34,765 bases of DNA from Deltaproteobacteria bacterium (lineage in GTDB: Bacteria > Desulfobacterota > Syntrophia > Syntrophales > UBA2210). A program made the position numbers and the translations under genes. The DNA is taken from positions 1-34,765 of the forward strand of contig JAGYOR010000005.1 of NCBI GenBank assembly GCA_018399535.1, in the 5' to 3' direction. Below the pieces are notes generated by a model. That model was not told the DNA's origin, ran no database searches, and was given only the letters and a program-made list of their open reading frames with translations. Shown piece by piece: positions 13,476-20,299 of this stretch; the stretch's first letter is position 1, and every line of letters begins with the position of its first letter.

Positions 13476-14633
<1,158 letters not shown>

Positions 14634-14865: not shown

Positions 14866-15372
14866 TCAGACAGCTTCTCCTTTTCGAATACGCTCGATCG
14901 TGTAGGGAACGAGACCGCCGGCTTTTATAATCTCCGCCATAAAATCAGGAACGGGGCTTGACGCAAACTGCCGTGAGTCGTCGATACGCTCAATCGAACC
15001 GGCGGCGAGATTCACCCTGACTTCGTCGCCTTCCGCGAGTTCTTTCGGCGCTTCCGGGGACTCGAGCAAGGGGAGCCCGATATTGAAGGCGTTTCGATAA
15101 AATATGCGCGCAAAGCTGCGGGCGATAATGAGCGATACGCCGGAAGCCTTGATTGCAAGCGGTGCATGCTCCCGAGAAGAACCACACCCGAAATTGCCGC
15201 CCGCAACGATGACATCACCGGGACGCACCGAAGAAGCAAACTCCGGCCGCAGATCGGCAAAGCAGTTCCGCGCCAGTTCGGACGCCTCGGAAACATTGAG
15301 AAAACGTGCGGGAATGATCAGGTCAGTATCGATATCATCACCCAGTTTCCAGATTTTACCCTGAAACATCAT
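14866..15372 (-). CDS. leuD: 3-isopropylmalate dehydratase small subunit
   Basis: A 168-residue swivel-domain subunit that pairs with LeuC to isomerise 2- to 3-isopropylmalate; it can also handle citramalate. Markers are GDDIDTDLIIPARF (12-25) and the substrate-loop signature GGNFGCGSSREHAP (58-71). The short length matches the archaeal/deltaproteobacterial type rather than the roughly 200-residue enterobacterial LeuD. The start is ATG 15372 (ATGATG) with AAAGGAA upstream. It is the last gene of the leftward leuA-leuC-leuD run, 82 bases after leuC, and ends 15 bases from the CxxC mini-gene. Confidence 0.96.
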   Translation of the reverse strand: MMFQGKIWKLGDDIDTDLIIPARFLNVSEASELARNCFADLRPEFASSVRPGDVIVAGGNFGCGSSREHAPLAIKASGVSLIIARSFARIFYRNAFNIGLPLLESPEAPKELAEGDEVRVNLAAGSIERIDDSRQFASSPVPDFMAEIIKAGGLVPYTIERIRKGEAV

Positions 15373-15454: not shown

Positions 15455-16714
15455 TCAGAGTTCTCCGGGACCGCCGATTTTTCCCAATACAGCCGAAGCC
15501 GCCGCGACAAAGGGATTCGAGAGGTAAACCTCGCTTTCAGGATGTCCCATGCGCCCCACGAAATTCCTGTTGGTCGTTGCCAGGGCTCGTTCGCCGGCCG
15601 CGAGAATACCCATGTGACCTCCCAGGCAGGGACCGCAACAGGGCGGGCCGATAACGGCATTCGCGTCGAGCAGTGTTTCAACGATGCCTTCCCTGACCGC
15701 TTCACGGTAAATCTTGGGGGAACCGGGAATGATGATCAATCGAAGTCCCCGGGCCGCCCTTTTTCCCTTCAACACGGACGCGGCGTCCCGAAGGTCTTCC
15801 AGAGAACCGTTGGTGCATGACCCGATGAATACCTGGTCCAGCGTCACATCTCCACATTCCGAGAGATTCCGGACGTTCGCGGGCGAGTGGGGAAAGGCCA
15901 CCTGCGGTTCCAGGGACGCCGCGTCGATGGTAACAACCCGTTCATACCGGGCATCGGCGTCGCTCATACGATAAATTGCGCCTGTCTCGGAGCGTTCATC
16001 AACAAACGCGCGGGTGATATCGTCCGGTTCAAAAATGCCGTTCTTGCCCCCCGCTTCGATAGCCATGTTCGCCATGGTGAGCCGCTGATACATGGGCATG
16101 CGCCGAACGGTTTCTCCACCGAACTCCAGGGTCGCGTAACGCGCTCCTTCGACACCGATCATGCCGATGAGATGTAAAATAATATCCTTCCCCCCCACCA
16201 ACGGCGACGGTGTGCCCTCGATGTTGACCCGGATAGTGGGCGGTACTTTCAGCCATATTTCTCCGGTCGCCATAATGACGCCGAGGTCGGTGCTTCCCAC
16301 GCCTGTTGAAAAAGCGCCCAGCGCTCCGTAAGTACAGGTATGACTGTCGGCGCCGATGACTACCTGCCCCGGAAGAACAAGCCCCTTTTCCGGAAGAATC
16401 ACGTGCTCGATGCCCACGTCTCCTCCCTCGTAGTAATGCGTTATATCGTGGCGGCGGGCGAATTCTCTCACGAATTTCACCTGCTGGGCCGACGCTATAT
16501 CCTTGTTCGGAACGAAATGATCCGCCACGAGGGCAACGGCATCCCGGTCGAAAACAGTCTCCCGGCCTATCTCGTTGAACACCTTGATGGCGATAGGGGC
16601 CGTGATGTCGTTGGCGAGGGCCATGTCGACCTTCACCTGGATCAGGTCTCCCGGCGAAACGGTTTTCCTGGCCGCGTGTTCCGCCAGTATTTTTTCTGTA
16701 ATGGTCATTGGCAT
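15455..16714 (-). CDS. leuC: 3-isopropylmalate dehydratase large subunit
   Basis: A 419-residue aconitase-family protein that carries the [4Fe-4S] cluster. I take ATG 16714 (MPMTITEKIL) with TTGGAG eight bases upstream; the frame is open to 16765 but lacks a better start. Cluster Cys occur in FIGSCTNG and in PPCCGPCLGG, and DSHTCTYGALGAFSTGVGS is the substrate region. The length and sequence are of the shorter LeuC2/HacA type that pairs with a short LeuD, as here. It is the middle gene of the leuACD transcript, 79 bases after leuA. The gap includes a small hairpin, CCGTGC/GCACGG (16740-16767). Confidence 0.96.
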   Translation of the reverse strand: MPMTITEKILAEHAARKTVSPGDLIQVKVDMALANDITAPIAIKVFNEIGRETVFDRDAVALVADHFVPNKDIASAQQVKFVREFARRHDITHYYEGGDVGIEHVILPEKGLVLPGQVVIGADSHTCTYGALGAFSTGVGSTDLGVIMATGEIWLKVPPTIRVNIEGTPSPLVGGKDIILHLIGMIGVEGARYATLEFGGETVRRMPMYQRLTMANMAIEAGGKNGIFEPDDITRAFVDERSETGAIYRMSDADARYERVVTIDAASLEPQVAFPHSPANVRNLSECGDVTLDQVFIGSCTNGSLEDLRDAASVLKGKRAARGLRLIIIPGSPKIYREAVREGIVETLLDANAVIGPPCCGPCLGGHMGILAAGERALATTNRNFVGRMGHPESEVYLSNPFVAAASAVLGKIGGPGEL

Positions 16715-16793
16715 GAGGCAAACTCCAATTATAAAATTTCCGTGCTCTATAATACAGGACGGCACGGCGGTAAACGTTTTTTTAATTCTTTTT

Positions 16794-18380
16794 TCAGAGC
16801 GACGGCTTCTCCGTTCGTTTCGTGTCCGGGGTCCTCAGCGAGTCAAGACGGTTCAGGGCATTGATATAGGCCTTCGCCGTCGCCACCAGGACATCCGGGT
16901 CGGATCCCCGGCCGATGACGCTGTGCCCGTTGAACCCGAGCTGGACCGTGACGACGCCCTGCGCGTCCGTCCCGCCGGTTATGGCATTCACGGCGTATTT
17001 GATCAGTGAATGTTTTGTCCGGGTGATTTTTTTGATCGCAGCGAACGTCGCATCAACCGGACCGACGCCGAACTCGGCGTCCTGTTTCTCTTTCCCGTCC
17101 ACTTCCATGCGCACCGCCGCCATCGGCATTGCGGCATTGCCGGATATCACGTTCAGGTAAAGCAGCTTGTACTTGTCCGGTTTCCTGAAAATGGTATCCG
17201 AAATGAGTTCCTCCAGGTCCTCGTCAAAGATCTGTTTTTTGACATCGGCCAATTCCTTGAAGCGTTTGAAGGCCCGGCTGAGTTCATCGTCGGTCAGCAT
17301 GAACCCGATTTTTTTCAGGCGTTCCTTCACGGCGTGTCTGCCCGAATGTTTCCCCAGCACGATATTGGTATCCGTCACTCCCACGCTTTGAGGCGTCATG
17401 ATTTCGTAGGTAATTTTTTCCTTGATAAGCCCGTCCTGGTGTATGCCCGATTCGTGGGCAAACGCGTTCGCCCCCACGATGGCCTTGTTCGGTTGCACGG
17501 GAATGCCGGTTATGTCCGTGAGCAACCGCGACGTCCGGTAAATGTGTTTCGTGTCGATGTTTGTCGAGAACCCCAGAATATCCTTTCGTGTTTCCAGGGC
17601 CATGACGATTTCTTCCAGCGACGTGTTGCCGGCACGCTCGCCGATGCCGTTTACGGCGCACTCCACCTGCCGGGCGCCCTGTTTAAGTGCCGCCATGGAA
17701 TTGGCGACGGCCACGCCGAGATCATTGTGACAGTGGACGGATATCACGGCATCATTGATGTTTTTCACCTTTTCGAACAGATAGGCGATGAGATCTCCCA
17801 GTTCATCCGGCATGGCGTAGCCCACCGTGTCGGGAATATTCACCGTCGTGGCCCCCGCTTCGATGACGGACTGAACCATGTCGACCAGATAATCACGGTC
17901 ACTTCGGGTGGCATCCATGGGAGAAAATTCAATATTGTCCGTGTATTTACGTGCGTGCCGCACGGCGTCCACGGCCTCCTTCAAGACCTGCTCCCTGCTT
18001 TTCTTCAATTGATACCGGAGGTGGATATCGGATGACGAAATAAAGGTGTGAATGCGGGGATGAGCCGCCTCGGCGATGGATTCCCACGCCCTGTCGATAT
18101 CGTTGCGGTCGGCACGGGCAAGAGCCGCGATCTGGGGTTTTCGAATGCGCCTGGCTATTTCCTGGACGGCGATGAAATCACCTTCCGATGCAACGGGGAA
18201 GCCCGCCTCGATAATGTCGACCCCCAGTTTTTCAAGGTGGCGGGCCATGCGGAGCTTTTCGTCGAGATTCATGCTGAATCCCGGCGACTGCTCGCCGTCC
18301 CGCAGGGTCGTGTCGAAAATGTATACCCTGTTATCATTCCGCTTTTTTACCTTTTCCCCTTTTTGTGCCGTCTTCCTCAT
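16794..18380 (-). CDS. leuA: 2-isopropylmalate synthase
   Basis: A 528-residue enzyme that condenses acetyl-CoA with 2-oxoisovalerate, the committed step of leucine synthesis. AAAGGAGGAGGAA directly precedes the ATG. The TIM barrel starts with [15 protein letters not shown] (20-34). The metal ligands include HCHND, followed by [20 protein letters not shown] and [10 protein letters not shown]. The C-terminal leucine-sensing domain (about 400-510) is complete, so feedback inhibition is expected. It differs from the neighbouring CimA in these motifs. It is the first gene of leuACD, preceded by a terminator, leader peptide and promoter that together make an attenuator. Confidence 0.96.
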
Positions 18381-18422: not shown

Positions 18423-18458
18423 AAATAAAAAAGGCCATGGGCGTGGCGCCCATGGCCT
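18423..18458 (-). terminator. leuA attenuator terminator
   Basis: On the minus strand AGGCCATGGGCG / CGCCCATGGCCT form a perfect 12-bp stem (18447-18458 with 18432-18443) around a CCA loop, followed by TTTTTTATTT. This is a textbook intrinsic terminator. It ends about 45 bases before leuA and starts about 25 bases after the leader-peptide stop. Confidence 0.9.
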
Positions 18459-18511
18459 CTCTCATTTCTTCGTGTAAAACTTTTATTCGGTCAGAAGGGC
18501 GGGCGACACGC
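18441..18511 (-). promoter_or_regulatory. leuA antiterminator pairing
   Basis: The leader RNA segment encoded by 18511-18500 (GCGTGTCGCCCG, leader codons 29-33) can pair with 18452-18441 (TGGGCGCCACGC). That gives ten Watson-Crick pairs, one G-U and one mismatch. It uses up the 5' arm, loop and part of the 3' arm of the terminator, so the two structures exclude each other. Separately, ACCGGTAA (18593-18586) and TTACCGGT (18532-18525) make an 8-bp pause-type hairpin spanning the Leu codons. Confidence 0.7.
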
Positions 18512-18596
18512 GAACGATATGCACACCGGTAAGAGCGAGTCCAAGACCCGAAAGGCTCAACAGGTTGCCAAGAATCGTTCGTCCGTTACCGGTCAC
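18483..18596 (-). CDS. Leucine-rich leader peptide of leuA
   Basis: A 37-codon ORF with a GTG start and CAAGGAG about nine bases upstream, ending TAA. Nine of 37 residues are Leu, most within codons 9-22 (ILGNLLSLSGLGLAL), plus Leu34-Leu35. It lies between a promoter and an intrinsic terminator ahead of leuA. A ribosome held at Leu codons 9-22 leaves codons 29-33 free to form the antiterminator. One that runs to the stop masks them. This is the classical leu attenuation arrangement. A small hydrophobic membrane peptide is the alternative reading. Confidence 0.75.
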   Translation of the reverse strand: MTGNGRTILGNLLSLSGLGLALTGVHIVRVSPALLTE

Positions 18597-18627
18597 CCGT
18601 GCTACTCCTTGAAAAGATTAGATAGAG

Positions 18628-18656
18628 CTTCTACATTATGAATAAACCCGTGTCAA
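18628..18656 (-). promoter_or_regulatory. Promoter of the leuA leader
   Basis: Minus-strand -35 TTGACA (18656-18651), a 17-base spacer and -10 TAGAAG (18633-18628). Transcription would begin about 25 bases upstream of the leader-peptide start. Confidence 0.7.
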
Positions 18657-18698: not shown

Positions 18699-20288
18699 TC
18701 AATTTTTTCTTTCTTCCTTGCTCAGCTTGTACTGCAGGCTGTCAACCAGCGCCCGCCAGCTGGCCTCGATAATATTGCTCGAAACACCGATGGTGGTCCA
18801 GACATCCTCACCGTCTCCCGATTCGAGAAGCACCCTGACCTTGGCCGCGGTGCCGTCGCTGCCCTCGATAATGCGGACCTTGAAATCCACCAGGTGCATT
18901 TCATCCACCTCGGGATAAAATTTTCTCAGGGCTTTCCGCAGGGCGTTGTCAAGGGCGTTCACGGGACCGTTCCCCTCGGCGGCGGTAATTTCCTGTTCCT
19001 TTCCGACGGAAATCTTGATGGTCGCCTGTGAACTGGAAATCCTTCTGCGCTTTCTCTGGTCGATCACGTTGAATGATACCAGCTCAAAAGGTTCCCTGAA
19101 TTCCCCCAGGGTTTTTTTAATGAGCAGCGCCAGCGATCCGTCGGCAGTATCGAACTGGTATCCCTCGTCCTCCATTTTCTTGATTTCCCGGACAACCCTG
19201 CGGCTTACGTCGTCCGAATCATCAAGAGATATTCCCAGTTCCCGGGCCTTGTATTCTATGTTGCTCCTGCCGGCAAGATCGGACACGATAACGCGTCGGT
19301 GGTTCCCCACCAGTTCCGGGTCGGTATGTTCATAAGCGGTCGGGTTCTTGAGCACGGCGCTTACGTGAACACCACCTTTGTGGGCAAACGCGCTTTTGCC
19401 CGTGTAAGGACGGGCGTTCACCGGGGGAACATTCGCTACATCGCTGACGTAGAGCGACAGGGCCGTGAGATTTTCCAGCGAGGATCCGGGAACGCAACGT
19501 CCGTTCATCTTGAGATGCACGTTTCCGATAACAGTTACCAGGTCGGCATTGCCGCAACGCTCTCCATATCCGTTGACGGTCCCCTGGGCCATGCGGACTC
19601 CCGCTCTCAGGGCGGTAATAGTGTTTGCCACGGCAAGTCCGCAATCGTTGTGGGCATGAATTCCCAGGCGTTCTGCGGGAACAATCTTTTTGACCTCTGA
19701 CACGATATCGGCCAGTTCCCATGTCATGGTTCCACCGTTGGTGTCGCACAGGGCAATCCAGTCCGCGCCGTCCGACAGGGCCCGCTCAATCGTTTTTAAG
19801 GCGTATGATGGATTATGCTTGAATCCGTCGAAAAAATGCTCGGCGTCGTAAACGACTTCCTTGCCCCGGGATTTCAGGTACGAGACGGATTCTCCTATCA
19901 TGTCAAGATTTCCCTCGAGCGAAACACCGAGAATGTCCGTCGCGTGCAGATCCCAGCTCTTGCCGAAAATCGTTGTCACAGGCGTGCACGCGTCGATCAG
20001 GGCACGTATGTTGGGACACTCTTCGGGTGTCATGCCCTGTTTGCGAGTGCTTCCGAACGCCGCCAGGCGAATATTTTTAAATTTCTCCCGTTTCGCCAGT
20101 TTGAAAAACCGCAAGTCCTTTGGATTCGATCCCGGCCAGCCACCTTCGATATAATGAAAGCCGGCCTCATCAAGCTTGCGGGCGATCTTGATTTTTTCCT
20201 CTGCCGTTACGCTCACCTGCTCGCCCTGGGTCCCGTCGCGTAGTGTGGTGTCATAGATAATTACGTCTTCACCCGTGCGTTTCATCAT
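18699..20288 (-). CDS. cimA: (R)-citramalate synthase
   Basis: A 529-residue enzyme that condenses acetyl-CoA with pyruvate to citramalate, the threonine-independent entry to isoleucine. I place the start at ATG 20288 (MMKRTGEDV) because AAGGAG at 20299-20294 overlaps the in-frame GTG at 20294. Barrel motifs are [28 protein letters not shown] and [12 protein letters not shown], with [14 protein letters not shown]. The variant [12 protein letters not shown] (not GEQSPG) marks the CimA group. A C-terminal regulatory domain (about 395-520) is complete, so isoleucine feedback is expected. It is preceded by an Ile-codon leader and terminator. LeuCD and LeuB nearby supply the later steps. Confidence 0.95.
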
Positions 20289-20299
20289 TTTCACTCCTT

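Follow-up and report, generated by a model that had tools for sequence, protein, structure and literature searches.

A predicted ribosome-mediated transcription attenuator of leuACD in the Syntrophales, with its first pairing strand at the leader's own start site

The minus strand of the 34,765-nucleotide stretch of DNA analysed here (the window), from an uncultured Syntrophales bacterium (Thermodesulfobacteriota), very probably carries a ribosome-mediated transcription attenuator in the gap between cimA and leuA, which senses charged leucyl-tRNA and controls leuACD. The placement of the host in Syntrophales comes from named relatives of the LeuA encoded here. The leader element lies directly downstream of cimA (18699-20294, minus strand). 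The first controlled gene would be leuA (16794..18380, minus strand), a 2-isopropylmalate synthase of 528 aa scoring above the TIGR00973 cut-off, and sequence reading places leuC (15455..16765, minus strand; aconitase family, 436 aa) and leuD (14866..15372, minus strand; aconitase C-terminal domain, 168 aa) behind it. leuB (13479-14633) is on the opposite strand, apart from the leuACD operon. A leucine-leader attenuator at this place had been predicted from the letters of the window, and conservation, covariation, Leu-specific codons and constant spacing now support it. The comparison with relatives supports four RNA strands (1-4), the Leu-specific conservation and the spacing.

In the proposed mechanism, transcription would start in the cimA-leuA gap and a ribosome would begin translating a 37-codon leader. 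When leucine is ample, the ribosome would reach the stop codon and cover strand 2, and strands 3 and 4 would form the terminator. When leucine is short, the ribosome would stall at the Leu codons 9-22, leaving strand 2 free to pair with strand 3, and the polymerase would read on into leuA. This leucine response itself is what we infer from the arrangement. In untranslated RNA, strand 1 would pair with strand 2 and the terminator would form; termination would therefore be the default. Strand 1 is positioned upstream of the stalled ribosome, which to our knowledge is unusual; during the stall, a further ribosome waiting at the start codon would have to keep strand 1 off strand 2.

The proposed promoter, TTGACA-N17-TAGAAG, is indeed present on the minus strand, with the -35 hexamer TTGACA at 18656-18651 and the -10 hexamer TAGAAG (4/6 matches) at 18633-18628. 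By sequence it is a putative sigma-70-like promoter, and in 62 of 74 relatives a TTGACA lies no more than 110 nt before the leader. A rule-based promoter scan of the window did not list it because TAGAAG lacks the final T required by the scan rule. Downstream, the Shine-Dalgarno (SD) sequence AAGGAG (18605..18610, minus strand) precedes a GTG-started reading frame of 37 codons with nine Leu (VTGNGRTILGNLLSLSGLGLALTGVHIVRVSPALLTE; 18596-18483, minus strand), just as had been described. Seven of the nine Leu codons fall within codons 9-22 (18531..18572, minus strand), the Leu control region. The window thus has a short open reading frame with start signals, rich in the codons of the operon's product, as in a leader-peptide attenuator.

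Among the relatives, the median leader count is 11 Leu in 39 residues (28% Leu), and beyond Leu no residue identity is broadly conserved in the leader peptide. Synonymous codons vary at the conserved Leu positions, and all six Leu codons are used across the leaders; one position, for example, has CTT 26, CTG 21, TTG 11, CTC 10 and TTA 1 times. The description of the Leu codons as spread holds for the window but not for the relatives, which have near-tandem runs such as LLLGLALLRLLL. The distance from the leader stop codon to the terminator is 23-29 nt in 70 of 74 leaders. One Leu position favours CTC (51/65) inside GGCCTCGCC, which suggests an extra RNA constraint. This position lies in the Leu run of the relatives (window equivalent 18531-18572), where GG[CT]CTCGCC is conserved at the codon level.

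The leader ends in an intrinsic terminator ahead of the first structural gene. Strand 3 (18447..18462, minus strand) comprises the terminator 5' arm and the preceding purines and is common to antiterminator and terminator, and strand 4 (18427..18443, minus strand) comprises the 3' arm and the U-run. The perfect 12-bp hairpin that had been read from the window, AGGCCATGGGCG/CGCCCATGGCCT, is GC-rich, is followed by the U-run and folds at -27.8 kcal/mol (z -7.0), with none of 200 shuffles equally stable. We collected leuA upstream regions from Syntrophales genomes and aligned 84 distinct leaders, among which the 5' arm reads GGCC[A/G]TGGG and the 3' arms compensate. In this alignment 98.5% of the terminator cells are paired, compared with at most 67% in slid registers, cells with a double change number 31 versus 11.2 in shuffles, and five of the 12 pairs have a change on both sides. 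A compensating change is found even within the window's genus, where one genome (G003) has GGCCGTGGGC/GCCCACGGC versus GGCCATGGGC/GCCCATGGCC.

The antiterminator shares strand 3 with the terminator, and both stems covary across relatives. Its 5' strand, strand 2 (18488..18507, minus strand), was located by fold and covariation from the end of codon 30 to codons 36-37. The original prediction had placed this strand at codons 29-33, but the conserved strand runs toward the leader stop codon and not toward codon 29. The predicted pairing of ten Watson-Crick pairs plus one G-U, CGTGTCGCCCG with TGGGCGCCACG, does exist with one mismatch, but the conserved register differs: the 75-nt segment before strand 4 in the window folds CGCCCGCC.CTTC with GAGAGGCC...GGGCG, which is the register of the relatives. 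There, the consensus CGCCCRTCGTTTTTAGGT pairs with ACCTRAAAGGCCRTGGGCG. The pairing was scored on anchored blocks, as the ACCTAAA(A)GGCC junction is misaligned between subgroups in the MAFFT columns. The native score of 978.5 is reached by none of 500 strand swaps, which give 943.2 (sd 5.4); the pairing in register is 13.6/18 and at most 9.9 when slid, and one pair occurs as T-A 39, T-G 16 and C-G 10 times of 72, although several of the comparative controls cannot fully remove phylogenetic relatedness. When strand 4 is omitted, 83 of the 84 minimum-energy folds have at least eight pairs between strands 2 and 3, and the exception (L036) comes from the window's genus.

The window itself is a weak representative of this stem. 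Its antiterminator block has drifted (CGCCCGCCCTTCTGACC against GAGAGAGGCCATGGGCG), and at -13.7 kcal/mol its antiterminator is weaker than most, the median of the relatives being -20.6 kcal/mol. When the energies of the two alternative folds are compared with those of shuffles, the terminator stands out, but the antiterminator alone is no better than chance (z +0.74). Single-sequence folding, not significant in the window, was rejected as proof of the antiterminator, and the claim for it therefore rests on the comparison with relatives.

Strand 1 was assigned to the SD and start region of the leader (18588..18613, minus strand) by duplex prediction and by covarying equivalents in relatives. 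Its core CGGGTGAC (18599-18592), which contains the GTG start codon, pairs with GTCGCCCG (18507-18500), and the strand 1:2 duplex of the window has a predicted energy of -20.7 kcal/mol. When strand 3 is left out of the leader RNA, the CGCCC block has a mean predicted probability of 0.66 of pairing upstream; its partner lies most often at a distance of 79-93 nt, close to the start codon of the leader. Native strand 1:2 pairs reach -19.4 kcal/mol; exchanging strands between elements weakens this to -16.9 (sd 0.28), and shuffling to -14.0. Sequence variants associate accordingly, AACGATG pairing off with CATCG at 16:1 and ATGAC with CGTCG at 15:1, counts that relatedness inflates; the direction of this association agrees with a functional 1:2 pairing. 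Such a protector pairing would free the terminator without a stalled ribosome. The original prediction had instead likened an 8-bp hairpin across the Leu codons, ACCGGTAA/TTACCGGT, to the pause hairpin of known attenuators. It is present in the window, but even the closest genomes have not kept it, its counterpart in one of them being ATCGATAA (L035). The hairpin was rejected as strand 1 in favour of the start region.

Could the conserved reading frame instead encode an arrest peptide or a functional small protein that works via its amino-acid sequence? The C-terminus RPSFLG is kept in most leuA leaders, as might be expected of such a peptide. However, the same nucleotides of the antiterminator block translate as RPSFLG, SPVVFR or ARRF-stop, depending on the element. 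The three frames are used by 71/12/1 of the leuA leaders and by 0/38/11 of the leaders of an oxidoreductase operon described below, and the window leader reads the block in the second frame. Because the same nucleotides are read in three frames, the block is conserved as RNA and not as peptide, and the frames are strong evidence that the C-terminus is not kept for the sake of the peptide. With Leu identity alone broadly conserved in addition, we consider a functional peptide extremely improbable.

The hairpin might also be a constitutive terminator, for instance of read-through from cimA, with a separate and unregulated start for leuA and an accidental reading frame. The hairpin is strong by itself and cimA is immediately upstream, but throughout the order the Leu codons, the covarying antiterminator, strand 1 and the fixed spacing from stop codon to terminator are conserved as a set, and the same cassette occurs at an unrelated operon, which makes this explanation very unlikely. 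T-boxes and leucine-binding riboswitches are known to control amino-acid operons in other phyla, and either one might control leuA. No Rfam family, the T-box model included, was matched at gathering scores by the window leader and sampled relatives, no aptamer-like conserved fold was seen beyond the four strands, and the Leu-rich reading frame has an SD sequence; control of this kind is hardly credible.

The attenuator appears to be widespread but dispensable, since some relatives of the same family are without the leader and have leuA directly after cimA (L074, L082, L098, L111, L113, L115 and L167); these leaderless genomes either lost the leader or never had it. A covariance model (R1) built from 60 leuA leaders matches 124 of 139 Syntrophales genomes (E <= 0.001), most leuA leaders being in its training set, whereas matches at operons other than leuA are outside that set. 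In a phylum sample of 247 genomes, about 8 of them from the same order, 38 match R1 at 1e-4. Outside Syntrophales, one strong match (G266) likewise belongs to a leuA leader, and of the weaker matches examined there many resemble attenuators for other amino acids. Outside the order (L303-L325) we observed Trp leaders before trpE and leaders with aromatic residues before DAHP synthase-like, AroA'-like and shikimate kinase-like genes, all named by eye. Spirochaete MAGs (L190, L191, L192 and L200) have what seems to be a separate attenuator, with Leu-rich leaders (e.g. ILLLALLLD) and a strong terminator ahead of leuA.

The enterobacterial leuL element combines a leucine-rich leader peptide with a mutually exclusive antiterminator and terminator before leuA. 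The Syntrophales element shares this layout, but its strand 1 is the leader's SD/start region, its Leu codons are not four in tandem, leuB is separate from its leuACD operon and on the opposite strand, and the corresponding Rfam model (RF00512, Leu leader) has no match in the window or relatives. The trp, his, thr, ilv and pheA attenuators and the ilv-leu leader of S. aureus (PMC5794164) follow the same ribosome-stalling logic but differ in sequence, sensed amino acid and taxon. The Actinobacterial LEU element also has a Leu-run leader upstream of leuA, but it folds as a conserved pseudoknot, in which the run of Leu codons and the leuA Shine-Dalgarno sequence form the base stem (PMC1262725), whereas the present element has a terminator and an antiterminator. 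A 2013 survey with Rfam motifs found such attenuators mainly in gamma-proteobacteria, with few transfers (PMC3766115); those described here are order-wide in Syntrophales. A search of the open literature retrieved no paper on Syntrophales attenuators, an absence that is no proof of novelty.

In about 56 of the 139 Syntrophales genomes, this Leu attenuator lies in front of an operon for a 2-oxoacid:ferredoxin oxidoreductase, and 22 of these genomes are without a leuA match. The operon has the order gamma-delta-alpha-beta (PorCDAB-type), with a gamma subunit of TIGR02175 and a beta subunit whose best match is 3-methyl-2-oxobutanoate dehydrogenase, below its cut-off; pyruvate could be the substrate. 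These leaders (L023, L025-L027, L030, L234-L288 and L293:1900-5100) read the antiterminator block in frames other than that of most leuA leaders. This leader and the absence of leuA are only weakly linked (22/41 against 34/98, Fisher p 0.057), and a strict replacement of leuA by the oxidoreductase operon was not supported. One genome rated complete in five contigs (G040) has ilvC and leuC and no leuA at 1e-90. Missing leuC proved uninformative as a sign of lost leucine synthesis, as leuA-less genomes keep leuC, probably for the citramalate route to isoleucine.

Leaders with other cognate codons precede further genes. Up to ten Tyr codons in tandem were found in leaders before tyrosine phenol-lyase/tryptophanase-like genes of five Syntrophales genomes (L326, L327, L328, L334 and L014), and Trp leaders (WWW) with a terminator precede the gene for indolepyruvate ferredoxin oxidoreductase alpha in at least two genomes, G009 and G102 (L295:670-850; L287, minus strand). 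Six Syntrophales genomes (L279, L282, L285, L289, L290 and L292) have dapA behind Lys leaders whose terminators are of the GCCATGGG type, and such leaders occur outside the order as well (L320). The functions at these operons are proposed from codon logic.

In summary, we describe a four-strand, covariation-supported attenuator family of Syntrophales that is absent from Rfam. Its strand 1 falls on the start site of the leader itself, and its antiterminator block is read in three different frames. It seems to us evenly balanced whether, in this order, an attenuator with cognate codons shows that an enzyme usually called catabolic serves biosynthesis; the regulatory codons suggest, but do not prove, such a use. 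If true, the oxidoreductase would serve to make leucine through reductive carboxylation of isovaleryl-CoA, the tyrosine phenol-lyase-like enzymes to make tyrosine from phenol, and the indolepyruvate oxidoreductase to make tryptophan from indoleacetate. Because regulatory codons name the amino acid that is scarce, they might offer a test, from sequence alone, of the direction in which reversible oxidoreductases and lyases work, which would be useful for organisms that are hard to culture.
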